Below, piece by piece: positions 11,935-60,240 of a DNA stretch of 64,000 nt. Below the pieces are notes generated by a model that saw only the letters and a list, made by a program, of their open reading frames with translations, was not told the DNA's origin and did not search any database. Positions within the stretch are counted from its first letter, which is position 1, and each line of letters opens with the position of its first letter. The position numbers were made by a program, and so were the translations under genes. Source of the DNA: Bolinopsis microptera (taxonomy: Eukaryota; Ctenophora; Tentaculata; Lobata; Bolinopsidae); contig NC_087074.1 in the NCBI RefSeq assembly GCF_026151205.1, positions 13,787,167 through 13,851,166 of the forward strand, read 5' to 3'.

Positions 11935-12861
11935 ATGAGTAAAGTCCTCATTCTCTTTCTCACCTGTCTGGTACTGTGCCAACACGTCCACTCCACAGAA
12001 GACACTGATTCACACCAACAAGTTGAATCACCAGAACTGCAGTGTCCCGTCCCTAACCCCCTCGATATATTACTGGGTGGCAAGTGTCTGATTGGCGAGG
12101 AAGATTCAGATGCTGAATCAGATAGTACCACTGTCTCCGACAGTGACAAAAACAGGGGTATTCTCGGTACACCCAAGAAACGGAACTTTATCGGGTTGCA
12201 AACTCTCATCTTCAAATATTTCTACATGCCAGTCAAACGAACTCTGGCGTTTCTATTCGAGGAAGTAGACAACGACACTCACTTTGTGATGAAGAAAGGA
12301 TTGAAGGACAGCGAGCAGGTTAAGAAGTACAAATGCCTGCCATGTAACGAGTCCTCTTCCACTGTAGACTATGTGTTAGAAAGTGCCCTGATAAAGGAAA
12401 TGAACAAAACAACAGGGTGCGGGCTAGTCCTATTCTACAGTCCTTACTGTAGGTTCAGTGTGAATATCCTCCCTGCTTACAAGGGTTTAGCTAGAGTGTT
12501 CCCTCAGCTAGCTGTTCTGGCGGTTAAGATAACCCCCTACTCCAGCTCATGTATACAGTTCGGTGCTGTGGGCACCCCTACTGTCATGCTCTTCTTCAAC
12601 TCTCGTCCTATTCAGAAGATGCCCGTTACCCTGACTAATATCACAGCTATGGCAGGTTATGTGGTTAATATCACTGATTTGACGCCTTCTTTCCCTCTGG
12701 AATTACAAGAATCTGACCATGAGGGAGTGGAGCTTCTGCATTCTTTTGATTGGGTCCTTCTTTTCTCAGTTCTGTTTCTATCCGGGTCGACCTGTTATAA
12801 TGTTTTTTCGACTGCAGCTGGGAAACGACTGTTGCAAAAATTCAAATTGAAACGAGAATAG
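11935..12861 (+). CDS. TXNDC15: TXNDC15-like membrane-anchored thioredoxin domain protein
   Basis: This is a 308-residue intronless frame. Residues 1-20 form a signal peptide (LILFLTCLVLCQHVHS), followed by an acidic Ser-rich stretch. A thioredoxin fold spans about 145-250 and contains 'VLFYSPYCRFS', the atypical active-site loop of TXNDC15 with a single Cys rather than CxxC, so classical redox activity is not expected. The cis-Pro strand appears as 'GAVGTPTVMLFF'. A transmembrane helix at about 274-293 (DWVLLFSVLFLSG) is followed by a short basic tail. TXNDC15 is a single-pass endomembrane protein linked to the ciliary transition zone and Hedgehog signalling in vertebrates; that role is transferred from the family. 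N-glycosylation sequons (NDT, NKT, NIT) fit a lumenal domain. The absence of introns contrasts with the multi-exon neighbours. Confidence 0.85.
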   Translation: MSKVLILFLTCLVLCQHVHSTEDTDSHQQVESPELQCPVPNPLDILLGGKCLIGEEDSDAESDSTTVSDSDKNRGILGTPKKRNFIGLQTLIFKYFYMPVKRTLAFLFEEVDNDTHFVMKKGLKDSEQVKKYKCLPCNESSSTVDYVLESALIKEMNKTTGCGLVLFYSPYCRFSVNILPAYKGLARVFPQLAVLAVKITPYSSSCIQFGAVGTPTVMLFFNSRPIQKMPVTLTNITAMAGYVVNITDLTPSFPLELQESDHEGVELLHSFDWVLLFSVLFLSGSTCYNVFSTAAGKRLLQKFKLKRE

Positions 12862-13325
12862 TGTTTGAGTAACAAATAGCATTGGTTGGATTATTTTTTT
12901 TGGCCTCGTTTTAACCTCTTAATGAATTAAAGCTTATTTATGCTAAAATTTTATATTATCAAACATTTAATTGCGAAATACCGTCCGAAAAATTGTTATT
13001 CATGTTGACGTTTTATCTTATCCAAGATACTATTTGCATATTTGCCACTGATTATTCTATAAATGTCATCTTTTAGCTCTTCAAGCTGAGAAAAGCTTAT
13101 TTTTCTAATTATCTTTGATGATTTTATGTATTTTGAAAATTTGAAATTAATGTTTGTCAATGCTCTTTACCTGCTTCCAATAATATTAGATTACAACAGT
13201 GGTTCTAAGCACTAAACTAAAAATTTATGTTGCAATATTTCTCTCAAACTAGCTCATAGACTATCATTAACTATCGACCTTTTCAGTATTACTCCTCATA
13301 GCTCCTAAACCTACCTATCAAAAGT
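12862..13325. other. Intergenic spacer
   Basis: AT-rich, with no gene seen. A pyrimidine-rich acceptor-like TTTTCAG ends at 13286, 39 bases before the FAM76-like start codon. Confidence 0.4.
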
Positions 13326-16300
13326 ATGAACAGAATGTCTACCAAGGTATGTGGGAACTGCAACATAAAGCACGCCTCCGCTGAACTCTCAGGACCCCAA
13401 CACTTATGCAAGGTTAGTTAAAAAGCAAAACCTTTCAGATATCTAAAAACCAGTGACTACTTTTCAAGCTGCTGATATTCTAAACTGGTGCTAGAAATAA
13501 AACTAATACAAATGACATTGCTTAGCTAGTGAATGTAATATGACACAGGAGAGGATACTGGTGCGCTGCCAATCACCCGTATCGTCAGTTAACAGTGAGC
13601 AAGCAGCAATCAGAGGTATCACCAACGCGTCCGGTGCCAACAACTGCTTTCTTAACTGTTCTGTCCAAGCCATCTGGAACCTTGACCCTTTCAGAGCTTC
13701 CTTCGTTCTCATAGACCAGCACGAGTGTTCGGACTCGTGTATATTCTGCAGTCTACTAACTCTCGCTGCTAACTACCAGTTTCACGAACAAGGTCCGGTT
13801 ACACCTGACGTGCTGCGGAATGCGCTGGCTAAATCCTACCAGAGTGACAATAGGTTTCAGATAGGATTCATGGAGGATGCAGCTGAGTGCTTTGAGGGGA
13901 TACTTCACAACCTACACGTCTCACTGTCAGACTCTAGTTCAGATAGTTTGTGTATTGCGGAGAGGTGTGTATCACACCGTTTATTCTCTATGACTCTTGT
14001 TGAACAGGACAGCTGCGTGTGCAGTGCTTCCTCTGAACCACTCACATTCGATCAGTACATTTTCTATACTTCTGTTTCTTGCATCACTGACAGACACAAC
14101 GCAGATCGGTCTCTTACATTCGCCACTTTACTCCAAGAAGCAACCTCCAGCATTAAACCATGTCCTGCTTCAGAGGGAAAGAAATGTGCAGGTCCAGCTA
14201 AACTTGAGGTGTCTCTCTTGGAGAAACCTGATGTTTTCTGTGTTGGCTTGGCTTGGCCCAACACTCAGGTCGATACCTTGCTCATCAAGAAGTTGACAGA
14301 TTGTATTGAACTGGAGCTTGATTTGGATGAGCTGTTTGTAAATGTGGCCTCTAACCGGAGCAATTTGTTCAGGTTAGTGGGCATCATGGTGTACTATGGA
14401 ATGCACTATTTTACATTCTTCTTCCACTCTGGAGTTAAGAAATGGTTACTGTACGATGATGCGTGTGTCAAAGAAGTAGGTCCAGATTGGGAATCAGTAA
14501 AAACCATGTTGGTGAAAGGAAAGTACCAACCGCTAGTTCTACTTTACGTAAACCCTTGTCCTGAGAAAATAGTCTCAATAAGCGGTGGAAAAAAGTCAGC
14601 TTTGTCTAAAGCATACAAAGATATGAAGGGCCACAAAGAGAAATACAGATTGAAAAACCGTCTGGCATGTTTTGCTCCAGCATCACCAATAGAGACCAAA
14701 CAAAGGCGCATCAAGACTGATATAATCAGACAAGAAAGTGCTGAGGGACTAGGAACTTCACCGGGATTCTCAGGGGATCCTCACAGGAACTTTTTGGACC
14801 ACATGGTTTCAGGTGTGGAGGAGAAGGTAACTGCAGGGCTGAGTATGCTCGGTCTCAAAGATGGAGACAAGTTTCATAAGAAAAAGTTTATCAATGATTG
14901 CATGAAACAAGCTGATAGCCAGTATTTTGAAGCTAAGAAATGTTTGGTGATCAAAGAATACACCAAAGCGTTAGACTTCGCCGTTGATGCCACTAATTTC
15001 TACAAATTTATTTTGTTACACGAAGATTCTAGCGCAACCCAAAGGGAACTAGCCCAGATACGATACCACACGGCCAGGACTAAAGCAAAAAGAATAACAC
15101 GACGAATCCCTGCAACGCAATTAACGGAAGGGCAACTCAGCGCGCTGTACCACCGGTGTGCCTTATGTGAAAACTTCAGAGAAGACGACATGAAGTACTG
15201 TCATGACTGTACCAGGTACTGTACCACGTGTAGCTGCGTTCTGGAACTTTCTGATATAGAATACTGTGCTAACTGCATGCCTGACTACGTGGTCAACGCT
15301 GATTTTGAGGAGAACTTGAAGGGTAGTGGACATTCCGCGCAGGATGTAGTTTGGTACGACAGTAAGAATAGTATGCCTTCACCGCCTCCCTACGAAAGTC
15401 TTCGAAGAACTAAGTGTCTTCTTTGTAATCGCAGTATTGTGACCAGTAATGATATTTGTCATTTCTGTGTGAACTCCAGGTATGGCACGAAATGATTTTC
15501 AGACAGTTTATATTTTAAATCGATTGTTGATTGTATAATTGAAAACTGATTTTTATGGCATTAATGATAGTTTTGGATTCTGGATGGGAGGTGAAGCATA
15601 TTTTTTTGACACGTGACTGCAATAAACCAATAAGCTTCCACCATTGACCAATCAAACACCAGAATCACTGTCACGTGCCAAAAATATGCTTCACCTCTTC
15701 ATCAGAATCCACTTCTATAGTTTTGTGTTAAAATAATGATTTGTATAAAGAGTTTAGACAAAATTCATATTTAATTGCATTGGAGTTTGGAGGTTTCATA
15801 GCTGTAGCAGGATTAGTTGTCAGAAGATTAAAATTATCAAATTTGTTCATTATTAATTGTTATAATAATCTTTAATTATAATTATTATTGACTTGTGTTC
15901 ATTTTCATTGTAGTTTACTTTATAGTAATTAGTTTTCTTTTTACAGTGCAAGTGTTTCTTTTGCTTTGTTCTATTCTAATACCATCAAGAAGGACAAATA
16001 ACATGCGATCACAATTCCTGCTGTCAATAATACTAGTAAATTCATTTTCCTCAAAGCTGTTTAGCTTTCGTATAAGAAGTTATTGCCCTAGAAATATAAT
16101 ATTCAAATATTTCACCAATTTTAAACAATATCCCTTTGTAAATGAAATGCTAATCTTAGCAAATTTCAGGAATGCCGTCGGACTCTCCCCCAAGAAAAGT
16201 GTTCATTTTGTCAGATCGATTTCTACGTTATTGGGTTAGAACTTTACGTTACATTCAATTAATAATTGTAACTCATTAAATTTTCTAAATTTATCGAAAA

Positions 16301-18266
16301 ATGGTTGATATTCTATTTTGTAAAAACTCCTTTTCAGTGATATCAACAAAAGCAAGCCTGCCTGTAAGAAATGTTCAGAGTATTACAACAAGTTTGGAGA
16401 TGTGAGTTTGTTGATTTAAATACGATCTTTTTTTAAATTACCCAGATTTTAACCCTCCTCTAATTTTATTTTTCTATTTATTAATTCCATTAATTTATTA
16501 ATTCCAGTTTGGAGTCGATTTGTCAATAAATGTCGACAATTTCAGCCAAAGGCGTGCGACTGGTGCAAGACTCCATCGGCTTTCAAGGGCAGCAAATGTT
16601 TCCAGTGAGTGAAGCTCTTGTGATTGCGAATTGCGATGCATAATTGTCAGGTAGTTTCAATGCTTAAATGGTGTTTTCGGGCGGTAACAAATTTAATTCA
16701 TAATATGCGGAAGGCGCGATGCATTTGATCTGATGAGATTCAATCTGTAGGTCTTAATTTAGCGCGCCTCGCTCTGCGTGCGCGCGTTTCTCAGTTTATA
16801 TATTGAAATCGATCGGCGAATTTGTTCGAATTTTCATTCGTCGATGAAAAAAATCACATGCTTGACTCAATAGTAATCATCTTTGTGAAGCGACTAACGA
16901 CAAAACTTTAACTTTTAGGTGCAAGTCGGCCGAAGAGAAGTATGGCAAACCATCACGCTGCGAGGGTTGCAAGAAAAACTCTTACTTCGATAAAGGACCT
17001 GAGGCGAAAAAGAAAGTAAGTCTAGCAAATTCTGTGTGTTGTCTGCTTCGATGTTAAGTTATTTCACTAAAGCTTGAACGCTGTTAGGGTCTGATTGAAA
17101 TGTCAGTGAACATTTACTATTTGTAGGTGGAAAACAAAGCACTGTGTTTGCTCTGCACATTGAAGTTCAAGAAAGAATTACACAGAAGTGGAAAGTTTAA
17201 GAGAAGTTCAGCCGAGATCGTGAACAGTAAATCGTCCAAAAGTAAACGAGCTAAAGATTCTAATGACGCCTCTTCATCAGCTCATAGGTCTTTTCCGAAG
17301 CTTATCTTTCCGCGTGCGATTCATAAGCTGTAACTAGAATTTTCTTACCAAACCCTTAAATTTAATTTCATCTATCTCATACATAATCAGAGCAAATAAC
17401 AAATTTTAAATGAACCTTTTCAGAGCGTGTAAAAAAGGACCACCCAAAGAGATGGGGATACAGGTAGATTTGTGCGGCCACAGCTCGGTAGAGGATAAGT
17501 CCAGTTCTGATAAGGATAACAGTATGGAGGCTATGTTGCTGACTACTCAACTCAAAGAGGAGGTCATCAATTGCAATTAATTATATTTTGTGATCATATA
17601 TTACATTACTTGGCAGTAGATTAATAAGTCAAATGTTAAAATTGTTCAGGTTTAAGTTTACTGTCATGAAGTCAACATATTTTAGAAAATTAAAAATTTA
17701 AGCGACATTCACATTTTCCTAATGTTCATTTTATTATGGCTGCAGATAGCCCAGCTAAAGCGACAGCTTGATGCACGAGACAGAGAGCTGATAGTGAAGG
17801 GGAAAGAGCTGAGCGAAAAGAAGACTGACATGTGGGAATTGGAGAAGAAACTGCAGAAGAAGATCACAGACCTGGGACAGGAGCATATCAAGAGAATAGA
17901 GGGAATGGAGGTAAGTTTAATTTAACTTATTCGTTACAGCTGCCCGGCTAGAATCTCACCTTATTTAGTGGAATTAATAGCTGTAATGTAAATGAAATTG
18001 CTCACAGTTACTCTAGCTCATGCAACAATTTTGTGCTTAAAACACTCTAATTTCTTGCCATTGCTTGACAAAACAACTCATTTTAAACTACATCCAACAA
18101 TACACAGTTGTTACACAAAACACAATAATTTCAGCAAATCATAAGAGACGTCAAGGCCCACAACTCAGTCCTTGTCAAGAAGTTGAAGACCGGAACCCGC
18201 AAATCAGCAGCTCCCTCCATCGCCGCCTCCCTACTTATGGACACAGAGGAGACTGACTCTACGTAG
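13326..18266 (+). CDS. FAM76: FAM76-like zinc-ribbon and coiled-coil protein
   Basis: Readable exons are 13326-13412 (phase 0 end), then 16338-16401, 16546-16604, 16919-17015, 17127-17287, 17424-17562, 17746-17910 and 18135-18266. The last seven join in phase. The order matches FAM76A/B: an N-terminal 'CGNC...HLCK' pair, 'ACKKC', 'ACDWC', 'KCFQCKSAEEKYG', 'CEGCKK', 'ALCLLCTLKFKK', a Ser/Lys-rich linker, a coiled coil starting 'IAQLKRQLDARD' and a short tail. FAM76 proteins are nuclear, and their biochemical role is poorly defined. The segment expected right after 'LCK' (another CxxC ribbon) is not found as a separate exon. The exon at 16338 needs an upstream exon ending in phase 2, which 13412 does not provide. 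The USP-like frame between them does provide one (15479), so the two genes may be nested or fused. Confidence 0.75.
13540..15495 (+). CDS. USP54: USP53/USP54-like ubiquitin-specific protease
   Basis: This is a 651-codon uninterrupted frame inside the first large intron of the FAM76-like gene, on the same strand. A USP catalytic domain spans about residues 24-350. The Cys box is 'ANNCFLNCSVQAIWNLD' (Cys36), the His box 'YYGMHYFTFFF' (His289), and an Asp pair follows in 'YDDACVKE' (306-307). 'RFQIGFMEDAAECFE' and 'DSCIFCSL' are typical of the USP53/54 branch, whose members cleave K63-linked ubiquitin chains. After the domain come a helical, TPR-like stretch (about 445-530) and three CxxC-type zinc ribbons, including 'CALC', 'CHDC', 'CANC', 'CLLC' and 'CHFC'. 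A strong donor (AG/GTATGG) lies at 15479, just five codons before the stop and in phase with the next FAM76-like exon. The stop at 15495 may therefore be an intron-retention end. Confidence 0.75.
   Translation: MTQERILVRCQSPVSSVNSEQAAIRGITNASGANNCFLNCSVQAIWNLDPFRASFVLIDQHECSDSCIFCSLLTLAANYQFHEQGPVTPDVLRNALAKSYQSDNRFQIGFMEDAAECFEGILHNLHVSLSDSSSDSLCIAERCVSHRLFSMTLVEQDSCVCSASSEPLTFDQYIFYTSVSCITDRHNADRSLTFATLLQEATSSIKPCPASEGKKCAGPAKLEVSLLEKPDVFCVGLAWPNTQVDTLLIKKLTDCIELELDLDELFVNVASNRSNLFRLVGIMVYYGMHYFTFFFHSGVKKWLLYDDACVKEVGPDWESVKTMLVKGKYQPLVLLYVNPCPEKIVSISGGKKSALSKAYKDMKGHKEKYRLKNRLACFAPASPIETKQRRIKTDIIRQESAEGLGTSPGFSGDPHRNFLDHMVSGVEEKVTAGLSMLGLKDGDKFHKKKFINDCMKQADSQYFEAKKCLVIKEYTKALDFAVDATNFYKFILLHEDSSATQRELAQIRYHTARTKAKRITRRIPATQLTEGQLSALYHRCALCENFREDDMKYCHDCTRYCTTCSCVLELSDIEYCANCMPDYVVNADFEENLKGSGHSAQDVVWYDSKNSMPSPPPYESLRRTKCLLCNRSIVTSNDICHFCVNSRYGTK
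15575..15711. repeat. Imperfect inverted repeat with CACGTG cores
   Basis: Arms at about 15575-15619 and 15664-15711 are reverse complements over roughly 45 bases with a few mismatches. Both contain the block GAGGTGAAGCATATTTTT and an adjoining ACGTGAC. The loop is about 45 bases. It resembles a short foldback element or hairpin remnant in the intron after the USP-like frame. Confidence 0.65.
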
Positions 18267-19165: not shown

Positions 19166-22100
19166 ATGGAGTTTGTGAACGCTAACTTCCCTGATTCCCT
19201 CTCTGCACTCGACACCCACTTGTCTGTCAGGAGTTACATTACGGATTATAAAAACAACTCTCATGACTTACAGGTACTTCTTAATCTGCTTTACTTTCTC
19301 CCTCCAGATTTTCAGTCACCAATACCGGCCTACTTGAATGCTGACGTGTAATTTTCATTGTTTAATCATGACAAGTTAAAGCCCTAATAAACTCAAAAAT
19401 ATTGGTACCCGTATTAAATAAATCTATTATTTCGCCTAACCAGTTGTAAATTTTACAGGTTTTGAAGAAAGTGTCTCAGTGCAACACATCAGAATTCCCC
19501 CACATTACAAGATGGGCTCGTCACGTGTCATCAGTCTCCGGAACTCCAGGTTACCATGGCAACCACAGCACCACAGCCCTTCTCTAGGATCTTTTCAGTG
19601 TGTTTTATATTACTTAACTTTTTCTAAAAAGCGTGTCGTTTAATGTCTTAACTGGATAAGTAATGATAATCTATGTCAAATAGTTAGTTCTGATCTTATC
19701 TAATTAGGGGCTATGTCACCAGCACCGGCACCGACCCAACCTCGTACTCCTGAACAGATGCTAGCTAAGAAGCAGCTCATCTGTCGCAACCTACAGGTAT
19801 GTATAGATTTTTAGCGTTAATGCAATGATTGAGGTTATCGAAGAAATGCGAATCAATCAAACTCTAGTAATGAATATCAGATTTCAATTATATTGGCCGT
19901 AATTATATTTCTCAGCTAAATTTGCTCCTAATTTCGAATTTTCTTCACAGGAAACAGTTGGGGAGGATCGACTGGAAACAATACTGAAAGAAAGAGATGT
20001 TAAGATCTACTGGGGAACAGCGACAACTGGCAAACCTCACATCGCTTACTTTGTACCCATGATAAAGCTTGCTGACTTTCTAAAGGCTGGATCCGAGGTT
20101 TGTCTCCGATATTACGAAACAAGTTAATATCATGACGTTACATAAATCAGGGTTTTTTGTTGATTTTAGATGTGAAATTATTGATTAACGTGGCAATGTT
20201 TTCAGGTGACAGTTTTGTTCGCAGACCTGCACGGCTACCTTGACAACATGAAGGCACCCTGGGAACTCCTTCAACTCAGAGCCAAATACTACGAAGCTGT
20301 TATTAAGGTTTGGTTTCTGAATGCAATATATAAAATGCTCGATTTCTCTTCTCTGTTAAATTAAAAGCAAACGATGTAAGAACCTTTTTTCTAAGAGGGA
20401 CGGTAGAAGGAGTATGGAATTGGGAGAGATCCACGCTCACAAAATTTTTTGAGAGCTATTGTTCCTTGAGTCACTCACTTTAATCGCCCCAGTGTCCAGT
20501 ATCTGAACATATACCCTTTTATTCTTAAAACTTACAAGATATTACATCAGTCAGTTCATTAAAAGTTCATTAAATGATTCATGTAGTTTCACAATGCTCA
20601 ACCCACCAGGCGATGTTGAAGTCTCTAGACGTTCCACTAGAAAAGTTGAAGTTTGTGACTGGTACAGATTTCCAGTTGAGCCGAGAGTACACGCTGGATG
20701 TTTACCGACTCTCCTCCGTGGTGACTGATCACGACGCGCGCAAGGCCGGCGCTGAGGTGGTAAAACAAGTGGCGCACCCTCTCCTCAGCGGACTTCTATA
20801 TCCTGGATTACAGGTAATTTATTGCTTATTAAGTTGCGAGCGTCCGCGTCAGGAGATGATCAAGAATATGAAAAAAATGTGTTTTATGTTTTCTCAAGAT
20901 GTGGTAGGAACTAAGATATGATATTATTTTAATCTTTTTAAGTATAGTCAGTATAAGCTGGTATAAATCAAGTTATATACATATTACTGTCTTTTCAGGC
21001 ACTGGATGAAGAATACCTAGGAGTGGACGCTCAATTCGGAGGAGTGGACCAGAGGAAGATCTTCATGTTCGCTGAGAAGTACCTACCTCTGCTGGGGTAT
21101 AAGAAGAGGATTCACTTCATGAACGCTATGATCCCCGGACTTACCGGTGACAAAATGAGCAGCAGCGAACCTGTTAGTTTGAGAACTTTGTGGTGGTATT
21201 ATGTCAATTATACTTTATAGCAGCCCACATAATTGTCCTGTCTTCTTCAGTCGTTGTAATGATAGTGAAATTATATCGCATATTTTTGTACATTTCGTGC
21301 TACTTATCGCGGTTCTGGCTGTTTTTATTCTTATTTTTTTATTAATTTCACCCGCTTCAGGATAGTAAAATCGATCTGATAGATCCACCGTCGGCCGTGA
21401 AGAAGAAGATAAACAAAGCGTTCTGTGAACCCGGAAATGTGACCAACAACGGTCTTCTCAGTTTCTCTGAATACGTTATCTTCCCTTATCTCGGCGAGAA
21501 AGGTCAGTGACAGGTTTTTATTAAGATCGTCATCCTATTGAGTTTTCAACCGTGTTAGTTTTGGTTAAAATTTACGCTAGGATTCCTTAAGTAACCGACT
21601 TCAATCTTACTCAGAGTTTGAGATAAAAAGAAAACCAGAGCATGGTGGGGACGCATCCTATGCAAACTTTGAGTTGCTGAAAGAAGCTTACAGAACTGAG
21701 GCCATATACCCTCTCGATCTGAAGAACGCTGTCGGGGGATATATCAACCAGGTAAAACATATCCTTGTGTTTCATGAGACTAATAACGTGACTCTAACAC
21801 CATATCTCTCAGCTTAGGATGGTTAACATGGAGACATCCCCTAGCAACAAGAAACCCTCGCCCACCAGCAAGAAACAAAAGGGAAGAACAGGAAAGGAGC
21901 ATGTCAGCAAATTCCACTGTACTACCTGTAACGTGCACTGTCCTAACGAGACAACTTTACAGCAGCACAACGCCGGCAAAAAGCACAACGCCAACGTGGA
22001 CAACACACAACGCCGTGACAAACACGCCATGAGCAGTGTGTTTGTTGGCAATTTGCCCAAATTAGCTCAGATCAGAGCGAGGCTGGTGGAGGAGACTGGG

Positions 22101-25100
22101 AGTTGTGTGGAGGGGAAGGAGAATGATAAGCTTAAATCTGACCTAAACACTGTTTTTAGTGCGTACGGGGAGATCGCGAAGATTATAGTCGATAAGAAAC
22201 ACGGGAGTTACTGTATTATTGAGTATAAGACTCCGAGTATGGCGCAGGTTGCGTTATCAGAATATCAAGCCGGGAAGTTCCAGCCTTTCTACGGTAAGAA
22301 ACTGCAAATAAAATCACGTACAGTGACAGAGATAAAACCACTACACCAGATAATTACAGAGAGTGAGCTAGATAAAGATAACATCGTGGCTCTGTTGGAA
22401 GAGGCTGAGGACGACCCAATTTGTGCTCTAAACATGGTTGATGCTGCTATTTCTGTGTCTGATAAAGTGAAAAGGACTCATCAGGAAGCTTGCTCCAGAA
22501 TCCAAACCCAACTGAACGAGAACCTCCCGTTCTACAGCATGGTCCTCTCCGTCTACGGATCAGCTGCCACTAACCTCGCTCTCCGAGACTCAGATCTAGA
22601 TATCAGCCTGACAGTGGGTAAGGACAAGAGGCTGGATCGTGATGATCTGATCAGAGTGCTGAAGGAGAAGTGCACGGGAGTTAGTCACGTGCACGTCATA
22701 CCGGCACCAGGTCAGGGCACTATCACCAGGTTCCTGGACGGGATATCCAACACCATGTTCGATGTGTTGTTCAGCAACAGACTGGGGGTTGCTAACACCG
22801 CTCTCATCAACACAGTCTTGTCGTATGATGGTAGAATAGCTAGGTTCATCAGGCTTGTTGTGTATTGGAGACGAGTTGTACTGGGAGCTAGATTCCCTAA
22901 ACAGTGTATCCCTTCTTCCTACTCCATCACCATCATGTGTATCCACTTCCTCCAACAAAAGGGCTTCTTTCCCGACTTCTTCCAAACCCCACTCATCACG
23001 GAGCACAAGATGATATATGATCTAGACTGTTCTTTTATCACGGATATCAGTAAACTACCCACCCCTCCTGATGTTGGCAGTATTCCTGACCTACTGTCAG
23101 GTTTCTGGAGCTACTATGGTTCTGAGTTTAATGTTGAGACCCAGGTAGCGAGCATGAGGAGTGTTCTGAAGAAGAGCGAGGTTGAGGAAACAAGTAAAGA
23201 TACCCCACACCACTACGTCACCCTTTTCAAAACCTCCCCTCTGGCTGTACAAGACCCCTTCGTTCTAACTCACAATCTGACCCACAATGTAACATTGGAA
23301 TGTGTTGTGTTCTTCAGGGATCTGTGTAGGAGCGCTTGTAGTAACATGAGTAAGGGTGCTCCGCTATACACCTGGATGTTTGGTGGTATTGCTGGGAACT
23401 CAGCTAGTCTTGGTGGGGACGGTGCTTCCACTTCTAGTCACCAAGACTCTGTTGAAATGGAGGAGGAGGAAGAGGAGGAGGAGGGAAATAAGACACCTGT
23501 GTGGGACGAGTCAGTTGCCGTTGGTAACAAACGTTCCGTCGAAGAAATGGAGCACTGAAAATTTAATTCTGTGTGTTATGAGGATTTTTTTCTCAACTTG
23601 TTCAGATCGTGATCTAGATTTTATCAATCGTTTATTGGTTGGCGTGTTTTTACCCATTTTAAAACTGTTTTATCGCTTGTGTGATGTGTCATTACCACAA
23701 TGGATTTTATATCCTTTATTTGTAAATTGTTCATTGAATATTAATAAGATTTTCTTCCATTTTGCTATGAAAATCTCGTCTCATTTATTCAACTCTTATG
23801 GTTTAAGTAATCTCAAGTAATTAATTACTTGACTCCAAATTTCAAAATATCAAATATGATAATTTGTCTTGATTTAAATAATATGCTTATTTACACTCCA
23901 ATTTGAGATTACATTGACCCTGCCACACCTAATAACTAGCCGAATCACATGTCATTATTTTCAGTTGCTAGCACCAATAGTAAAAGAGTTCCAAAGTAAA
24001 GAACTGAAGAAGCTCTCCTCGCAAGCGTACCCCATCGCTAACAGTAAGTAGGGTATTCAGGCTTCAAATGAAAACGAAACTCTAAAATTTCAGCATTCTT
24101 AGTTTTTATGAGCATTCTAGTTTTAATGAGCATTCTTAGTTTTAATGAGTATTCATACATATTTTCAAGCTTTTGAGCTGGCTAGCTCGCTATATAGTAC
24201 TTATAAAGAACAGGAAAATTCCTAAAAATATTTTTGCGTATTTACTGCTTGACTTACCCAACATACTTCAGCTAAGGGAGGAAAGGCTGCTGAGCCAGAT
24301 CGACCTGTGGATATCTCCAGAGTAGACATCAGAGTCGGCAAAATCGTCCATATTGAACCAGTAAGTTAATTATAAATCTTATGTAATGTTTTTAAAAGTC
24401 AGCTGCAAATTTGTGAAACATTTAATGTTCGTGAAACATTTAATAATTCAATTATCACTTTTGGACATTTTGTTTGAAAAATAAATTAATACGTACTAAT
24501 CTACTGACTTTACATCTAGCTAGCAATGTTTTTATCCTCATCCCTGCTCGTTTATACCCTTCTCTCTCTATGTCTAATATCACACACCTCCGGCGTGACG
24601 TCACATTCCTCCGACCTCGGTGTGATATCACACCACAGATCATGGAAATCCACAGAACTGGAGGAATTTGCCGAGTACATCCACTTCGGTCTGTGTTGGA
24701 AATACTACCACACCGATGACGGGATAAACTGGCAGCTGAACTTTAACGAGATCCTCTCCTCACCGCTTGTAGACCAGATGACACAGCTGGTGGAGATTGA
24801 CAGGAGTAAAGTTCAGTTCCAGAACGCTACAGGTAGAATATTGAGACGGGGGGACGATGTCAGGGTTAACAGGTTCTGCAGGGACCAGTCTCAGTCGGGT
24901 AGTGTTGTGTTGCTCGTGCTCTTCACTCCGGAGGATAGGAATGATTACGGAGAGCTCCTTTTCTTTGATGATGTCATGAGTGATGTCACAAAAACTTTAA
25001 GACCGAGTGATTTTTCTGTGATCAAGTTCTCGTGTAGACAGCCTTATCAGTGGCAATACCCTGCTATACAAACTCAGAAAGGGCTTGTTTTTATACAGTT

Positions 25101-26994
25101 TCTGTTTATCGAGGAAGGTTGGCTGGACAATGAAACACAACTAGATAACACCCAGAAACCGTTCCCTACTAACAGTGGACCTTACACGAAACTAGGGGAA
25201 AACGATCTGACCGTGAAAGTAACATCCTCTTTCAATCTAACAGCAGATAAACCTGTTTACATCCTAGATAACCTGTTTGAGGAGCGTGATTTGTCAGAAT
25301 TGGCAGAGCACTTCCTCCTCTCCCGGTATATCTACCAGGAGCATGACGACTCAGGGTACACTGACAACGTGGTGTTTATAACCCCTCTGCCGCCCTTTCA
25401 ACTGGTGAGGACTAGAGTCTGGGCGGTGTTGGAGAGAGTGCTGGTTCAGCTAACAGGAAGGGAGGGGTGGTATCCGTACGATGTGTCTAACAATCTGAAC
25501 GAGCCGTGGGACCATACTCGGATACACCCTGACTGTTTCGAGAGGGATGAGTACACCTTGCTTGTCTACTTAAACAAGGAGTATCAGCCTGGTGATCTAG
25601 GAGGGACTGTCTGGTATGATACTGAGAACGGAGAGAATATTCTGGGTTCTGTGATGAACAAGTTCGGGAGGTTAGCAGTGTTTCAGTGTTCGATCCCTCA
25701 TTCTGCTCGACCCCCGCACGCGTACAAACCTGGACCCAGGCTCACGTTTGCTGTTAAAGTAGCAGAGGGGCGAGGTAATGCCGTTGTGAGGAGTATGAGT
25801 GAAACTACAGTCAACAAGGATGGAGATGAGGAGAAATCAGAGGAGGATTTAGAGAATGAACTGTGGGAGGAGTTGCAGGATGAATTGGGTGGGGATGTAG
25901 ATAAGTTGGAAGCTCAGTTTGAGGAGATGGTATCTCAGTGGATTCATGAACAGGGGGAATTATTTGATAATATTCTTAAGTCTGCTGGATCTCCGCACGA
26001 TGATCGTCAAGTTGTCAGAGATGAACTCTAAATTTGACTGCATAATTTTAATGTGTTTAGAATTGAAATTTTTGATTTGAGAATTGGAATTTTAGTCACC
26101 ATATCTAAAGGTTTTATCATAGTTTTAGATTGTTTAGATTTTATTTATATTTATTTTTGTTAATGATAATTTATTATATTAATACATTTGTTAATATATC
26201 ATTATCTTCCAACCTTGCTTAACGTGTGATGATAATTTAAATCAGAAAAATATTTAATTCTTAAGACAATATTGCAAAGTTGTTATCTATCTCAAGAATA
26301 CAATAATGTATTGAGCACAATGAAACTTCAGGTAGGATAACTATTACAAATACATAAGCCTTCAAACTCTTTCAGCACCCAGACGCAGACTCACTTTACG
26401 TAGAGAAAATAGACGTGGGGGAGGCAGAGCCGAGAACCGTCATCAGTGGTTTAAGGAACTTTGTGGCGCAGGATAAGCTAGATGGGGCACTTGTGGCGGT
26501 GGTTTGTAATCTCAAACCTGCTAACATGAGAGGAATTAAGAGTCAAGGTGGGAGTTATTAAATATTTGTATCTTTAATGTGGTAGTTGTGGGTGATAGGG
26601 ATTCTCGATTAGCAAATGTTTATACGCATCAATTTAAGTGCTCCTCTGTATAATTACCCCAAAGCAAATCGATTTAAAAGATCACCACATCACATCTCTC
26701 TTATCTCAACCCCCTCACTCCTCAGGAATGTTACTGTGTGCATCAGACAAGGACCACACGACAGTAGAAGTGCTGACAGTAGCTGAGGGCAGCAAGCCAG
26801 GAGACAGAATCACCAGTGACTTGTTCACCCAGGCTCCGGACACGCAACTCAATCCTAAGAAGAAGATCTTCGAGAAAGTTCAATCTGATCTTACGACGAA
26901 CGATTCTTTGGAGGTTACTTATAAGGGGGAATTGTTAAGAACTTCTGCGGGTCCCATTTTAGCTCCGTCGCTTGTGAAGGCTGCGATTAGATAA
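19166..26994 (+). CDS. YARS1: Cytosolic tyrosyl-tRNA synthetase with N-terminal GST-C-like domain and EMAPII tail
   Basis: Thirteen exons in matching phase: 19166-19273, 19459-19549, 19708-19796, 19951-20097, 20206-20307, 20610-20813, 20999-21172, 21361-21502, 21615-21751, 23965-24043, 24272-24360, 26376-26547 and 26726-26994. The product is 600 residues. Residues 97-430 are the class I catalytic and anticodon regions, with the HIGH-like 'KPHIAYF' (about 124-130) and KMSKS-like 'KMSSS' (299-303). It charges tRNA-Tyr with tyrosine in the cytosol. Residues about 435-600 are an EMAPII-like tRNA-binding OB fold ([20 protein letters not shown]), as in animal YARS1. Residues 1-66 are an extra domain resembling the GST-C-like module of eEF1B subunits ('[14 protein letters not shown]', '[11 protein letters not shown]'), joined by a Pro/Ala linker. 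Introns 9 and 11 contain two other genes on the same strand. Confidence 0.93.
21819..23558 (+). CDS. TUT1: TUT1/Star-PAP-like terminal nucleotidyltransferase, nested in YARS1 intron 9
   Basis: A 579-residue intronless frame. Domains in order: a matrin-type C2H2 finger (Cys34, Cys37, His50, His56); an RRM at about 71-155 ([18 protein letters not shown]); a polymerase-beta-type nucleotidyltransferase with '[19 protein letters not shown]' carrying the DxD pair; a third carboxylate in '[11 protein letters not shown]'; then a PAP-associated region with '[15 protein letters not shown]' and '[15 protein letters not shown]'. The tail is acidic (Glu run, about 545-555). This order is that of TUT1, the nuclear enzyme that uridylates U6 snRNA and polyadenylates selected mRNAs. 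The start lies only 67 bases after the YARS1 exon 9 donor, downstream of an acceptor-like TCTCTCAG ending at 21812. No separate promoter is evident, so its transcript may derive from the host pre-mRNA. Confidence 0.85.
   Translation: MVNMETSPSNKKPSPTSKKQKGRTGKEHVSKFHCTTCNVHCPNETTLQQHNAGKKHNANVDNTQRRDKHAMSSVFVGNLPKLAQIRARLVEETGSCVEGKENDKLKSDLNTVFSAYGEIAKIIVDKKHGSYCIIEYKTPSMAQVALSEYQAGKFQPFYGKKLQIKSRTVTEIKPLHQIITESELDKDNIVALLEEAEDDPICALNMVDAAISVSDKVKRTHQEACSRIQTQLNENLPFYSMVLSVYGSAATNLALRDSDLDISLTVGKDKRLDRDDLIRVLKEKCTGVSHVHVIPAPGQGTITRFLDGISNTMFDVLFSNRLGVANTALINTVLSYDGRIARFIRLVVYWRRVVLGARFPKQCIPSSYSITIMCIHFLQQKGFFPDFFQTPLITEHKMIYDLDCSFITDISKLPTPPDVGSIPDLLSGFWSYYGSEFNVETQVASMRSVLKKSEVEETSKDTPHHYVTLFKTSPLAVQDPFVLTHNLTHNVTLECVVFFRDLCRSACSNMSKGAPLYTWMFGGIAGNSASLGGDGASTSSHQDSVEMEEEEEEEEGNKTPVWDESVAVGNKRSVEEMEH
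24526..26031 (+). CDS. Secretory-pathway 2-oxoglutarate/Fe(II) oxygenase, nested in YARS1 intron 11
   Basis: A 501-residue intronless frame with an N-terminal signal peptide ([19 protein letters not shown]). The C-terminal half holds a prolyl-hydroxylase-like double-stranded beta-helix: 'RIHPDCF' supplies the HxD pair (His333, Asp335), 'IPHSARPP' the distal iron ligand (His392), and '[10 protein letters not shown]' the 2-oxoglutarate-binding Arg (405). Spacings fit the family. The middle (about 120-190) may be thioredoxin-like, but this is weak. The last 90 residues are strongly acidic. The substrate is unknown; the signal peptide points to ER-lumen or secreted proteins. An acceptor-like CATCTAG ends at 24519, six bases before the ATG and in frame with YARS1 exon 11. 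It is not an obvious orthologue of a named vertebrate P4H. Confidence 0.75.
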   Translation: MFLSSSLLVYTLLSLCLISHTSGVTSHSSDLGVISHHRSWKSTELEEFAEYIHFGLCWKYYHTDDGINWQLNFNEILSSPLVDQMTQLVEIDRSKVQFQNATGRILRRGDDVRVNRFCRDQSQSGSVVLLVLFTPEDRNDYGELLFFDDVMSDVTKTLRPSDFSVIKFSCRQPYQWQYPAIQTQKGLVFIQFLFIEEGWLDNETQLDNTQKPFPTNSGPYTKLGENDLTVKVTSSFNLTADKPVYILDNLFEERDLSELAEHFLLSRYIYQEHDDSGYTDNVVFITPLPPFQLVRTRVWAVLERVLVQLTGREGWYPYDVSNNLNEPWDHTRIHPDCFERDEYTLLVYLNKEYQPGDLGGTVWYDTENGENILGSVMNKFGRLAVFQCSIPHSARPPHAYKPGPRLTFAVKVAEGRGNAVVRSMSETTVNKDGDEEKSEEDLENELWEELQDELGGDVDKLEAQFEEMVSQWIHEQGELFDNILKSAGSPHDDRQVVRDEL

Positions 26995-43369: not shown

Positions 43370-45000
43370 TTATTTTGTGGTGTATATATGATGTGAGTGA
43401 CAGGTGTAAAATGTAAAAGATATAAATATAAATGGGGGTCTTTTCATCGGAAAGTGTTGAAGTTTAAGTCCTGCCAGTTAATATTGTTAGGTTGGTGTTG
43501 AGCCTTCATGATAGAATACTTCAATTGGGATTTAATTGAGCCTAGTGAACCTATTTTACCACGTGCATTTGACTGTTCAAGAAACGTATTCCATAGATTT
43601 GCCCCTTTATATGCGAAATTGTGAGATGAGTGTGGTGTCACAAATCTGTCATCTCTGAGCTGAGACTTCTTAAATAGAGAATACATGGATATGGGCTGAT
43701 GACTCTTCACTATCTTCATTGTTTCAGTAATGCATCTGTATCTATATATGTTATGTACTGTCATTAGTTCCTTAGATTGGAAAATCGGTTTTGATGATTC
43801 TCTAAAGTGGAATTCTGCCCCAAGTATTTGGCAGCGATGTGGCCTTACTTGTCTATCACCAGTCTTCCTCAAGCTGATACATATAGAACACGGTTTAATG
43901 TGAGGTATAGTTGATTCATTGGATATTTGACCTTTCTTGTTTATACTGCACTGGATTGGCCTGCTACGAGAACAAGTTTTAAACTTGTCGCTAAATGCTT
44001 CCGAGTCCCCAAATAAGATTCGGACACATTTCTTCTGTGCAAGGAATAGCGGTGAAAGCTTATTAATTGATACACCACCCCATACAGTTATACCGTATCC
44101 TAGATGAGATTCAAAAAGAGTGTGGTATATCTGTTTGTACAGCTGGCTGGGGAGGGAGTTTTTTATTCGATAAATACGGCCACATATACTGTTTAATTTC
44201 TTAGTTAGTTTCTCGATATGAGGTGTCCAACTCAGTTTGTCATCTATAATAACACCTAGAAATTTCGTTTCAGTAACCTGTTTGATCGGGATTCCATCAA
44301 TTTCTAGATTCAAGTCATTTTCAGTATTATCAATGGTCTTACGTTTAGTAGGCGAGAAGTACATGTAACAGGATTTTTTAACATTAATGTGCAGTAGATT
44401 ATGGCGCATATATTGGCACACAGAGTCAAGAATTTCATTCGCTATTTTGTATGCTAGTTCCTTAGTTTCAGCAGCTACAAAGATGTTTGTGTCATCTGCA
44501 AATAGTACAAACTTTCCTAATGTACTACATCTATAGATGTCATTTATATAGATAAGAAAGAGCAAGGGGCCCAAAACGGATCCTTGTGGTACGCCTAGTT
44601 TAACTGGGAGAGGCTCTGATTCTTCACCAAGTACACTAACATACTGGTATCTATTATTTAGATAGCTGGAGAGCAGCTTTAGTGCGTTTCCTCTAACTCC
44701 GTAATTACTAAGTTTCTTAAGTAGCATATCAAATGGTAAGGTATCAAATGCTTTAGAGAGATCGATAAATATTCCTAATACGTGGTTTTTATTATTCCGT
44801 TTTTCTTCGACATGATTTACGGAGTAATTAAGAGCATGACTTGTCGAGTGGTTTTTTTCAAAAGCCGAACTGATTTTCGAATATTATTCCTCGAGATAAG
44901 AAAAAGTTGTATAATCCGGAAAAGTCAATGCGGAACTCGGGTCCTTGGTATTGTCGTCGGTATATTGTCCATTATCTACGTTCTGCTTTCGTAGTTTAAA
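43370..45000 (-). mobile_element. Jockey/CR1-type LINE, 5'-truncated, reverse transcriptase ORF
   Basis: The minus-strand frame 44727-43444 (427 codons) extends upstream in frame to about 44860 and encodes reverse transcriptase motifs: 'FIDLSKAFDTL', 'GVPQGSVLGPLLFLIYIND' and the catalytic 'FADDTN', then 'KFLGVIIDDKLSW' and a thumb region. Further upstream a one-base frame change in an A/T run interrupts the 'NQFGF...NHSTSHAL' motif, and earlier sequence decays. The endonuclease domain is missing. The 3' flank has a TGAATGAATC-type tail (about 43352-43362 on the plus strand), common in these LINEs. Inactive. Confidence 0.85.
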
Positions 45001-52266: not shown

Positions 52267-54519
52267 TAACTAATCATAGTTAACTCCGGCATCCATCAGG
52301 GATGCCATGATACCACAGAGGCAGGCAGAGCATCTTCATGCTATCCTTTCTTGGGCCACCTAGGAAAAGAAGCTTTTTTTTCTTTTTTTTTTTCTTTTTT
52401 TTTTAAATTTTAATTATTACCACAGGAAATTACTGAAACTCTGGAGGGACCTATTTCGTTACACGAAATGGATGCTATTGTGAACAAGTTAACAAACAAT
52501 AAATCCCCAGGTTGGGACGGGTTATCTGCTAAATTTTATAAAACCTTTTGGTTGGATATCAGGCAGATCATTTACGACTGCTATTTAGAATCTATTGACA
52601 GTGGATGCCTGTCGCCTTCGCAGAGAATAGGTATTCTTACTCTTATTCCCAAGCCTAAAAGCCCAGCGGAACTTAACTACATAAAAAATTGGAGACCTAT
52701 TACTCTGCTAAACATTGACTATAAAATCTTCACACATATAGCTAAGAATAGGATTATGAAGGCTATCCCTAGCATAATCAGCAACACCCAGTCAGGCTTT
52801 CAAGCAGGCAGGAGTACAGCAGATAATCTTATTCTCATGTCAATGGTTCTGGAATCATTTAACAACGACTCGGAACAAGAGGGTCTCCTTTTACAGATTG
52901 ATTTTGAAAAGTGTTTTGACTCAGTAGAACATAACTTTGTCTTCAGTACGCTTGAAAAATTAGGTTTCAGTGATTATATTATTAAGTTGATTAAAGTGGC
53001 TTTTCAAGCGTGCTTTAGCTATGCAAATATTAATGGGTTTTTAAGCGCACCTATTTATCTCCTCAGAGGTCTTCATCAGGGTAGCCCACTCTCTCCTATT
53101 CTATTTCTACTTGTGGCTCAAACATTCTCGAATAAACTTCAGATCAACCCTAATATCAGGGGTATTAACATATCGGGTGTGGAAATTCTACAGAGTCTCT
53201 TTGCAGACGACACTGATCTGTTTCTGAAAGCTTCAATAGAGAGTGTAGAGGCAGTTATGGTAGAACTCAGAACGTTTGCTAAGTGCTCGGGGTGTAAAGC
53301 TAACATCGACAAAACTAGATGCATTCCTTTAGGTCGTGCTCGCCTTAATACAACTCTTCTAGCGTCCCTTCAAATGAACTACGACGATGATTTTATTACA
53401 AACAACTTTACGGCTTTGGGTATAGTTTATAGGAATGATGGCTCACTTATGGATATAGTCAACAGTAATTATAATGATAAATTGATTAAGGTTCGGTCTT
53501 GGATTAACAGGTGGAACAAGAGGGATCTGACGGTAATGGGTAAATGTACGGTTATCAAAACTCTCCTCTTTTCCCAATTAACATACCTGGTTCCTCCTCT
53601 CCCCAGACCAGATGCTTCCTTTATCAGAACTTTTGACACGATTATATTCCATTTTCTTTGGGGTTGCAAACGGTATAAAATAAAACGTGAAATCATAACC
53701 CGAAACAAGGAACATGGAGGCCTGGGACTATTTTATTTGTCCGATTTTATTATAGGTCTTAAAACTAGTCTTATTTCAAAGCTACTAAATGATTCCTTTC
53801 ACCACACTTGGAAAGATATTATGATTATGCAACTGAAATTTCCCGAGCACATCACCATCTCTGTAGAAAACGGTCTCGCTAACATCAACTGTTATTTTAC
53901 ACAGGACGTACTTAATTGCTACACTGAGTGGAAGATTAGTTCGGCTAATGCAGCCTTGGGTTCTATTGATCACTGTGTGTGGTCCAACCCAGCAATAACT
54001 GACATCGGGACCAAACTTTGGAACAACCATCTTATTGATAAGGGAATATTTTACATCTCAGATTTCCTTTCTATAGATCAAAGTACACTCCTTAACTACG
54101 ATATGTTCATGAACAAGTGGGAGCTGTCTCCGAATACGATTTCCAAAATTGATTACTGTAACATTATCATGGGGATACGGATATATAACTGTCCCACGAT
54201 TAACTCAAGGAATATCGAATTTGTTGACCCGAATATAAAACTTCAATTTTTACATTCTGCAAATGGGCAGGTGAAGGGAAGCAAAATTCGGGATAAAATG
54301 TACGATTCTATTTGCCCAAACGAGCTGTCTCCTTTACGTCAGTGGGTTATCGACTTGAACAGTCATTCCATCGACTGGGCAGTCGTTCTAAGCAACCTGT
54401 TTTTCTTAGTATCTAAAAACTTTAAGTTGATTCAATTTCAGTACAAACTTTTAATGAGGATCACAACTTGTAGATACATGAGACATAAGATGAAAATTGG
54501 GCACTATCCGTCGCGGAGT

Positions 54520-54990
54520 AGAGTCCGCGGCGGAGCCGCCGGACTCCGAGCGGACACCGAGCGGACTCCGGCGGAGCCGCCGGACTCCGAGCGGACACCG
54601 AGCGGACTCCGGCGGAGCCGCCGGACTCCGAGCGGACTCCGGCGGTGCTCCGCCAAAATGTATTTACACTGGACTCGAGTACATTTTGGCGGACTCCGAG
54701 CGGAGCCGAGCGGACTCCGAGCGGACTTTAAAGTCCGCCGCGGACTCCGAGCGGCTCCGCGGCGGCTCGGCGGAGTGTCCGCCGCGGACTAAGCCACTAG
54801 GCGGACTCCGGTCCGCCACGGACTCTGGCGGAGTGCTTGGCGGACTCCGCCGGACCTCTCCGCCAGACTTGAATCCGGCGGAGTCCGGCGGAGCTTGGCG
54901 GAGTCCGCCAGCTCGGCGGACTCCGCTCGGAGTCCGCCGGACTCCAACAGAGTCCACTGACTTCCGACCTCCGACTTCCGACCCTCGGCT
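54520..54990. repeat. CGGACTCCG-type short tandem array (left arm)
   Basis: Interspersed units of about 9-18 bases around GGACTCCGAGCGG and GGCGGAGCCGCC, strongly GC-rich. The mirror array lies at about 57030-57400 in the right arm. The array is itself palindromic at small scale. Confidence 0.85.
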
Positions 54991-56375: not shown

Positions 56376-58511
56376 CTGCAAGCGAGAGGGCTATAGTTAG
56401 ACTTAAAGCAACACATCGCGCCACAAGCCAAATATTTATCAACATCTTGACTAGCTACGCGGTCCTTTTCCGCATGCGCTCGCGCTGTGCTCAAAAATTG
56501 ACGTCGTCAATCAATCAACATCAAGATTTTAGTTTTACATTTGACCTTTATGTCAAAAAATCTCTGAATTTTCAATCGGTGGTCGATGTTACCTGAGGAC
56601 CTCAGGCTTCGTCCTTACTTCGTCACAGGACGATCGGAGCTCGAAGAGCGTAGAGAGTGCTGGCGTCGTCCTGTGATGGTCGACGTATTTTTGCTTGCTG
56701 GGATCCGGCCGAATGACGCCACATGCAACGTGTAGGGTAAAACTAAAAACGCTTCCCTATATGAGATAATATGACAAAAATTGTTTTGGTCACGTGACCA
56801 GTCAATGACATTGATATTTCGCTGCTGGCGGTTTGGTGGAGGGTTTGGGTCAACGTTTATACATTATAGGGTCAAAGTTAGGACTAGAGTTGTACACTAT
56901 TGACATTGTGAGGGTAATGGTTAAGGTTTATCACTAGCGACCTTTTCATCTGACCACAATATCGCAAAATGCTATTGGCTATGTTGTATGTCACGTGACA
57001 AATTTAGCCGAGGGTCGGAAGTCGGAAGTCGGAAGTCAGTGGACTCTGTTGGAGTCCGGCGGACTCCGAGCGGAGTCCAAGCTCCGCCGGACTCCGCCGG
57101 ATTCAAGTCTGGCGGAGAGGTCCGGCGGAGTCCGCCAAGCACTCCGCCGGAGTCCGCGGCGGACCGGAGTCCGCCTAGTGGCTTAGTCCGCGGCGGACAC
57201 TCCGCCGAGCCACCGCTCGGAGTCCGCGGCGGACTTTAAAGTCCGCTCGGAGTCCGCTCGGCTCCGCTCGGAGTCCGCCAAAATGTACTCGAGTCCAGTG
57301 TAAATACATTTTGGCGGAGCACCGCCGGAGTCCGCTCGGAGTCCGGCGGCTCCGCCGGAGTCCGCTCGGAGCCCGGCGGCTCCGCCGCGGACTCTACTCC
57401 GCGACGGATAGTGCCGAAAATTGTTACAGATACTCCCATGTGTAGCCTGTGTAAAACATATTTAGAAACTATTCCTCATATTTACCTCCATTGTATTCAC
57501 ACAAATAGCTTCATCACAATACTTGAAGACTTTATTAAAAGGAAAATCGATAGAAATTACGAAGATCCCACTAAAATTAATTTTATAGTCTGTAATCACA
57601 CTTCACAAATTATAAATTATTTTAATATCGTTGCCAAATGGTACATTAGCAAAAAATTTCAGGCAGGAGACTTGCCGATCTGGCAGGGGTATATCAAACG
57701 GCTTAAGCTATCACTTCAAGGAGATAAAATAGGTCACAAAAGTTCTATTGTGTCGATCTTGGCCGATTAGGGTAATATGTCCACTCCATTTTTATTGCTG
57801 TCTATGTTATTTAATTTTTATCGGTTATTGTTACAATCTTGCAGTACTACTAGTAGCTGTCTTTTTGTAGTACATGCCCTGCTTCCTTCCTTTCCTAAAT
57901 TTCTTACAAGCTCCTCCAGCCTCCTCTCTTACACCCTTTTCACTCCCTTCATTTCACTCATTCACTTTATATTTTATTACCACAGTATCTGCCAAAACCA
58001 ACATGGCCTAAGTAGAAAGGGGCCTTGACGTTGTTTGCCGCTTGGCCCTGCATCCCAAGCTGACGGTTGGCCTCCACTCTAAAAAACTTACCTTCAGTGA
58101 AGGCCGATGGTCAACAATTAGCGATGTAAGAGCTTGGCGGGTACAAATCCTGACCTCCTTTTACACCTTTGGGACGACTTTCGCAAATGCGAGAGGAATG
58201 ACCCCGAGGAGGGCTCCATTGGTTTTAGTAGGTTGCATATTTTAAATTTTTTTTTTAAAGAAGCTTTTTCTGATACAATGTTTTGAATAAGATCCACAAC
58301 CACATTTGCTGGTTATTTTATTTACAGTTGTGGTGCTATTGTTTATTCGTGCCGTACAAATGATAATTGATATCGATTATTTTATTAATCGACGGTTATT
58401 TTGTTAATTAGTACTACAAAAGAGAAAGTGACTTTTTTCACTAGACTCCAAATTTTCGTTTAAGCAGGCTCTAATGCTCATATTTATAATTTTCAAGTTG
58501 ATGGTCTTAAC

Positions 58512-59486
58512 ATGATGAACTATTCCAACGAGACTGTATTCGGAATTCAGAACAATGTCATAAAGTACACGTGGATCGGATACTTTCTCTTCGTTTTTCT
58601 ATCTTCTCTGATCGGGGACACGCTGATTCTGGTAGCATCCATAAAACTTCGTGCCTTCAAACTTCATAGCTTTATCGTCGTCTGCATCCAGCACATTGCA
58701 GTCTGTGATTTAATGGTTTCTTTCACATCTGTCCTTCCCAGACTTGTTTCTCTAATGGCAGGTGGTTGGGTTCTTGGTGATGCTTTATGCGCTATTGGAC
58801 CATTCATCATGATATATCCGGTTACAGTCAGCCTTCTTCTCATCTGTTTGATGACCACTAGCAAGCTAATAATTTTAAAATTCCCATCTAAATCAAGTTA
58901 TCTAACATCAAAAATCGGACACGTGATGTGCTCTTTCATATGGCTATCAGCAACAAACATCTCCGTCGCATTATTCATAGTTGACAAAAATGATGTAACA
59001 TTCGATTACAGGAGTTACAGTTGCCAATACGGTTTCTCCTCCGAGACGTGGAAATGGCTAAGACCCCTTATCGCTCTGCTTAACTCGATAATCCCCAACC
59101 TATTAGTGATAGGATCTACTGTGCCTCTGATAATATATCTACTTAGAGCAAGAAGACATTCAAAGCGAAGCAGGGGGGCTGTAAGATGGCAAGGTATCCT
59201 GACAACCTTCATTACTGCTGCTGTCTATAGCATATCCGCAATCCCGTACGCAGTGTATCGTTTCTTAGAATCACAAGCTGATGGGGTTCAAGATCCAGAT
59301 AATTCTTATTTCAGGCTGGCAGTGTCTTTCCTGTTTTTAAACACCCTCAGCAACTTTTACATCTATCTGTTCACGGTTCTTAGTTTCAGAAACTATGTTC
59401 AAGCCAGGTTTCAGACATATACAACATATTTATCATCTTTCAAATATCTTGGATCTATCAGTACCAACGGTAAGGAAATATACTAA
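58512..59486 (+). CDS. Class A (rhodopsin-like) G-protein-coupled receptor, orphan
   Basis: A 324-residue intronless frame with seven hydrophobic segments and N-terminal glycosylation sequons (NYS, NET). TM1 has 'IGDTLILVAS' (D where N is usual), TM2 has 'IAVCDLMVSF' with the conserved Asp, and the start of TM3 has Cys ('LCAIGP'), pairing with Cys in the second extracellular loop ('YSCQYGF'). The DRY site reads 'TSKL', and the TM7 NPxxY site reads 'SNFYIY'. These departures are common in expanded receptor families of early-branching animals. The cytoplasmic tail is about 35 residues. The ligand is unknown. A near-identical copy begins at 63598. The second ATG of the 'MM' start could equally be used. 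Confidence 0.85.
   Translation: MMNYSNETVFGIQNNVIKYTWIGYFLFVFLSSLIGDTLILVASIKLRAFKLHSFIVVCIQHIAVCDLMVSFTSVLPRLVSLMAGGWVLGDALCAIGPFIMIYPVTVSLLLICLMTTSKLIILKFPSKSSYLTSKIGHVMCSFIWLSATNISVALFIVDKNDVTFDYRSYSCQYGFSSETWKWLRPLIALLNSIIPNLLVIGSTVPLIIYLLRARRHSKRSRGAVRWQGILTTFITAAVYSISAIPYAVYRFLESQADGVQDPDNSYFRLAVSFLFLNTLSNFYIYLFTVLSFRNYVQARFQTYTTYLSSFKYLGSISTNGKEIY

Positions 59487-59915: not shown

Positions 59916-60240
<325 letters not shown>

Follow-up and report, generated by a model that had tools for sequence, protein, structure and literature searches.

1. Introduction

Two described systems come closest to the locus considered here. In the cholinergic gene locus, as far as the available part of its description goes, VAChT is a single-exon open reading frame (ORF) in the first intron of its host, ChAT (PMC3053374). 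In the ctenophore Hormiphora californensis, the available part of the genome report counts 2,357 nested intronic genes in 1,654 hosts, many of them parallel to the host, so that nested pairs of this kind, a whole gene within one host intron and on the same strand, are by that account already known from comb jellies; the same text gives spliced leaders on 56% of Iso-Seq reads, a lower bound (PMC8527503). We analyzed a window of 64,000 nucleotides (nt) from another ctenophore, Bolinopsis microptera (contig NC_087074.1), to which all positions below refer unless otherwise stated. It contains two separate genes on one strand, as follows: a nine-exon gene of the FAM76 family and, in intron 1 of that gene, a whole USP53/54-type deubiquitinase gene that has no introns of its own, here called the USP. 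There is very little room for doubt about this arrangement, and it can be taken as established how the two genes are built, to which families they belong, and that the USP and its relatives end at a common place. By analogy with Hormiphora, the locus would be an ordinary nested pair in a type of genome where such pairs are reportedly common. Two points are of some interest beyond the nesting, namely the placement of a candidate splice acceptor and the variant of USP53/54 that the inner gene encodes.

2. The FAM76 Host Gene

The start and stop codons of FAM76 are the exact outer limits of the locus (13326-18266), a genomic span of 4,941 nt. Once its nine exons are joined, 322 codons and a stop codon form a single frame; each of the eight introns is of the GT-AG type. 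The spliced product scores 202 bits against the Pfam FAM76 model, PF16046, in a match that runs from position 4 to position 296 of the 298 in the profile. With nearly the full model covered, the product resembles the FAM76A/FAM76B family throughout, and nothing notable sets it apart except that another gene is hosted in intron 1.

A preliminary description of this DNA had correctly placed the USP frame between FAM76 exon 1 and the later exons on the same strand (ATG at 13540, stop ending at 15495). It had also correctly recorded that exon 1 ends at 13412 in phase 0, that the exon at 16338 needs phase 2, and that a phase-2 GT lies at 15479, near the end of the USP frame. From these phases it had concluded that exon 1 does not fit the remainder of FAM76, and it proposed either that the two genes are tightly nested or that the deubiquitinase is of a new kind and ends in a tail like that of FAM76. 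The first of these proposals is supported and the second is not. A 65-nt exon, 16170-16234, had been overlooked; it opens with ECRRTLPQEKCSFC, the E-C expected after the HLCK of exon 1. Since this exon 2 turns phase 0 into phase 2, the exon at 16338 can be reached without any USP sequence. Among the findings that would speak against fusion, the preliminary description had itself named an undetected short exon between 13412 and 16338, and such an exon is found both in the sequence and in a 99% identical protein, P0019. Thus, a false fusion is removed and a correct model for both genes is supplied.

P0019 (322 aa, itself tagged PF16046) is identical to the FAM76 product at 318 of 322 positions, over the full length and with no gap. 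According to the protein database, its source is four contigs, the longest of 1,627 nt. Contigs this short cannot contain the unspliced gene, which extends over 4,941 nt, and are either spliced cDNA or a processed copy; we take the 'lgn' source tag, which the database does not explain, to mean assemblies of public reads. Only two further proteins among 699 candidates matched at E ≤ 0.001. P0020, at 61% in alignment with the FAM76 product, also carries the exon 2 segment, and P0021 is a shorter entry lacking the N-terminal part, which says nothing on exon 2.

3. The Nested Deubiquitinase

The USP ORF lies wholly within FAM76 intron 1 of the splice model, and both are on the + strand. It matches the UCH/USP catalytic domain of Pfam, PF00443, with an E value of 5.9e-24 over profile positions 2-254 of 254. 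The closest solved USP, both by sequence and by fold, is human USP54 (PDB 8c61); the structure alignment rows for the fold comparison span USP residues 31-345. The AlphaFold model has a mean pLDDT (predicted local distance difference test) of 64.2; confidence is fair in the catalytic domain and in the helices around residues 445-530 and poor in the linker and the cysteine-rich tail. Residues N29, C36, H289, and D306/D307 align with the catalytic and oxyanion positions in the USP53/54 rows, and N29, judging from the loop sequence, would be the counterpart of N35 of USP54. With Cys36, His289, and Asp306/307 present, the enzyme is probably active; it may trim ubiquitin chains, possibly those linked through lysine 63 (K63).

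An elongated Cys loop ahead of the catalytic Cys is a trait of USP53 and USP54 (PMC12037411). The window's Cys loop, N-ASGANN-C, equals N-EPGQNS-C in length, with different letters. At the S2 site, the position that appears to correspond to Phe161 of USP54 and Tyr160 of USP53 is V154 (codon 13999-14001), a residue that is hydrophobic and not aromatic. Six of seven close relatives of the USP share this V, and the seventh has I. One fish USP54a row, P0012, carries V as well; the residue is E in P0015, and P0018 is gapped. In contrast to USP53 and USP54, the window USP has Val154 (Ile in one relative) where these, by alignment, appear to have the S2 Phe or Tyr; it is also intronless, 651 residues long, and ends in a tail of six CxxC motifs. 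The Val or Ile at the S2 site, together with the extra ribbons, would make these enzymes a natural test of how USP53/54 gained a K63 preference. A literature search found nothing pairing ctenophores with USP54.

The six CxxC motifs of the tail likely form three zinc ribbons. Apart from one lone CxxC, they are absent from the 11 other rows of the alignment. A Pfam search of the tail gave no named domain above its cut-off, and DZR_2 matched below its own. The preliminary description was right about the presence of CxxC motifs in the USP but had likened the tail to FAM76, and no profile similarity to FAM76 was detected: an hhalign comparison of the two sets of ribbons scored 12.7 (E 0.4), and 34 of 40 Cys-preserving shuffles scored higher. 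A proposed homology of the helical segment, residues ~445-520, with the C-terminal helices of fish USP54 was likewise not shown, with a score of 10.5 against a mean of 9.2 and a maximum of 15.6 for 100 shuffles; this comparison used five of the ten fish USP54 rows, the other five having no motif or no sequence beyond.

The seven close relatives are 44 to 98% identical to the USP, and each is a single ORF. All seven stop 5-8 residues past the same last CxxC, as does the window USP, and in none of them does the frame continue into FAM76, as fusion in the orthologues would have had it. The last 38 residues are unchanged in P0001 and P0002, including the five (RYGTK) at or after 15479. As P0002 is 84% identical overall and keeps RYGTK, it would be unexpected for these codons to be intron.

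4. Origin of the Intronless Gene

A search of the genome (264,652,675 bases in 232 contigs) gave a single USP53/54 match at E ≤ 0.001, although such a search might miss one divided among short exons. It is tempting to propose that the USP arose by retroposition into FAM76 intron 1 and then took the place of its parent, given that it is intronless, that no second copy was found, and that vertebrate USP54 has many introns. This origin is possible but doubtful. Several neighboring genes are likewise single long frames, and of the genome's 32 glutamate-receptor matches, 10 sit in open frames of at least 900 aa. When 12862-16400 was searched for repeats, no long direct repeat was seen on the flanks of the USP ORF. 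In addition, the relatives on long contigs, P0002 (1.26 Mb) and P0005 (0.31 Mb), are single ORFs too, and it follows from this shared condition that the intronless state is old. With single long frames common near the locus, retroposition is a possible explanation and not a needed one.

5. Expression of the Nested Gene

The USP ATG lies 127 nt 3′ of the FAM76 exon 1 donor. Within this gap, 26 nt past the donor and 101 nt before the ATG, there is a candidate acceptor at 13439. Its score is reached by 15 of the 3,751 AG sites on the + strand, 6 of the 15 being training sites (the matrix was built from the eight FAM76 acceptors, a small set, of which six reach the threshold used). Over the 64 kb, nine non-training sites on the + strand, 13439 among them, reach this score, versus one on the − strand. 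By the + strand rate, ~0.02 such acceptors would be expected in the 127-nt gap, by arithmetic made after the fact. We take an intron of 26 nt to be too short for cis-splicing. With 13439 only that far from the FAM76 donor, the acceptor would serve a leader only.

We propose that trans-splicing of a leader to 13439 may free the USP message from the FAM76 pre-mRNA, and that the 3′ end of this message would be formed by polyadenylation within the intron, at AATAAA (15621) or ATTAAA (15827). The trans-splicing step, which turns on a putative acceptor, is put forward tentatively, at a little under an even chance, and the position of 13439 is suggestive only. The genome does contain leader-like sequences. 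A local leader was located through sites matching AATTTGAGGTA, of which there are 659 versus 200 in a reversed control, and it is visible by eye in 6 of 30 such sites fetched; it putatively ends AATTTGAG. A 31-nt pattern made of the 3′ part of this leader plus GT, with at most two mismatches, occurs at 1,384 genome sites, compared with 0 for the reversed control; the window contains no leader-like site. The likeness to Hormiphora thus lies in abundant spliced leaders there, as reported in the available text (PMC8527503), and leader-like sites in the genome here, in a different species.

Leader-like sites also occur as a tandem run on the same contig (G000:C3:13511056-13533420), ~254-276 kb upstream of the window. 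The sites are exact, mostly one per 589-592 bases, and all on the minus strand in the listed part. The run is probably a cluster of spliced-leader RNA genes. A second acceptor-like site in the window, 13287, just ahead of FAM76, has a score reached by 6 of the 3,751 + strand AG sites.

Several points weigh against the proposed route and the models behind it. The leader of Hormiphora (34 nt, up to three mismatches) has no match in this genome. The acceptor matrix rests on eight sites, and with it a site inside the USP ORF, 13695, scores slightly better (12.1) than 13439. When the first ATGs of four other long ORFs were checked, there was no acceptor above 5.7 within 300 nt. Both the 5′ and 3′ ends of the USP message are predicted from sequence alone. 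The AATAAA-bearing element belongs to a repeat present in many genome copies (58 rows from the 40 scored out of 366 first-look candidates); the repeat may be young, which makes the poly(A) site a guess. As to the host, P0019 might in principle derive from a processed copy.

If all parts are put together, the locus would be an operon-like intron, as follows. FAM76 and the USP would be co-transcribed, 13439 would lie too near the host donor for cis-splicing, and a leader would release the USP while FAM76 splicing went undisturbed; the enzyme released would belong to a USP53/54 branch of ctenophores in which the C terminus carries three zinc ribbons and the S2 site is altered, and the ubiquitin chains it recognizes may differ from those of its vertebrate counterparts. 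That the whole of this picture holds is unlikely. An acceptor beyond the cis reach of the host donor but open to a spliced leader is a testable answer.

A promoter of the USP's own, overlapping FAM76 exon 1 or intron 1, with the 5′ end of the message in the intron, would be the usual arrangement for a nested gene and would be compatible with a leader too. We consider it somewhat unlikely here. The sequence offers no direct support, though no eukaryotic promoter search was run, and the space is tight and occupied by the strong acceptor-like site.

Quite improbable is a shared FAM76 promoter and pre-mRNA without leaders, from which the USP would be produced by alternative cis-splicing or intron retention, in the manner of VAChT inside ChAT. 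The 127 nt between donor and ATG leave little room for a separate core promoter, and the single-exon ORF in a host's first intron provides the precedent (PMC3053374, in its available part). However, neither of the acceptors suggested in the preliminary description would connect exon 1 to the USP in frame: joining to 13530 gives an immediate stop, and after joining to 13526 the sixth codon is a stop. The in-frame S-E-C-N that it noted ahead of the USP ATG is present. Both acceptors score poorly (−0.4 for 13526 and −9.6 for 13530), and the good one, 13439, is the site 26 nt from the donor. The products of VAChT and ChAT share a pathway. We know of no functional link between USP53/54 and FAM76, and no search was made for one.

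A fused USP-FAM76 protein, made by splicing 15479 to 16338 as the main product or a minor isoform, is extremely unlikely: such a join would keep the frame open all the way to the FAM76 stop codon, and the GT has a usable CAG|GTATGG context, but the join omits exon 2, a join to exon 2 shifts the frame, P0019 and P0020 begin with FAM76's own N-terminus, and the ends of the relatives and the tail comparison (Section 3) also argue against it. The donor at 15479, which had been called strong, is ordinary, as 572 of the 3,724 GT sites in the window score equal or higher with a matrix of the eight FAM76 donors (the count includes 15479 itself and the training sites). Several GTs inside the USP ORF outscore it, the best being 14372, and 15479 and 16338 would agree in phase by accident one time in three.

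Table 1. Features of the FAM76-USP locus, in window coordinates.
Feature	Position	Strand	Remarks
Candidate acceptor, possible leader or 5′ untranslated region acceptor of FAM76	13287	+	Score 13.57; 39 nt before FAM76 ATG
FAM76 coding exon 1	13326..13412	+	29 codons, ends in phase 0, HLCK; matches P0019
FAM76 intron 1, host of USP gene	13413..16169	+	2,757 nt; splice model, protein-level support from P0019
Candidate 3′ splice acceptor (first exon base), proposed USP spliced-leader acceptor	13439	+	Score 11.75
USP53/54-type deubiquitinase gene, nested, intronless	13540..15495	+	651 aa plus stop
Six CxxC motifs in USP tail	15157..15468	+	Residue starts 540, 554, 561, 576, 626, 640
Putative USP donor of the preliminary description, judged unused	15479	+	Following residues kept in P0001, P0002; ordinary score
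Inverted-repeat element, like a miniature inverted-repeat transposable element, in intron 3′ of USP stop and before FAM76 exon 2	15567..15718	+	Contains AATAAA at 15621
FAM76 exon 2 (ECRRTLPQEKCSFCQIDFYVIG)	16170..16234	+	65 nt, phase 0 to phase 2; in P0019, diverged form in P0020
FAM76 exon 3	16338..16401	+	Splice model
FAM76 exon 4	16546..16604	+	Splice model
FAM76 exon 5	16919..17015	+	Splice model
FAM76 exon 6	17127..17287	+	Splice model
FAM76 exon 7	17424..17562	+	Splice model
FAM76 exon 8	17746..17910	+	Splice model
FAM76 exon 9 with stop codon	18135..18266	+	Splice model

6. Other Features of the Window and Genome

No Rfam family at its gathering score and no tRNA was found in the window. 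Three other genes are single long frames: a thioredoxin-domain protein at 11935-12861 (Pfam Thioredoxin, 3.3e-6), TXNDC15-like by our reading; a poly(A) or terminal uridylyltransferase (TUT)-type nucleotidyltransferase with a zinc finger and an RNA recognition motif at 21819-23558; and a 2-oxoglutarate (2OG)-Fe(II) oxygenase at 24526-26031, whose start looks by eye like a signal peptide. Reverse-transcriptase frames (Pfam RVT_1), of the non-long-terminal-repeat type by appearance, lie at 43444-44883 (−) and 52414-54792 (+). A TC dinucleotide run of ~160 copies at 59920-60240 gives rise to spurious long SLSL and ERER frames.

Two receptor frames, at 58464-59486 and 63583-63999, are near-identical by eye and probably a recent duplicate; the first has a rhodopsin-type match and the second is cut at the window end. 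In the genome, a glutamate-receptor frame has its best PDB match in ML032222a (5cmc, E 5e-54), presumably a Mnemiopsis receptor, with a vertebrate kainate receptor near (1.4e-51).
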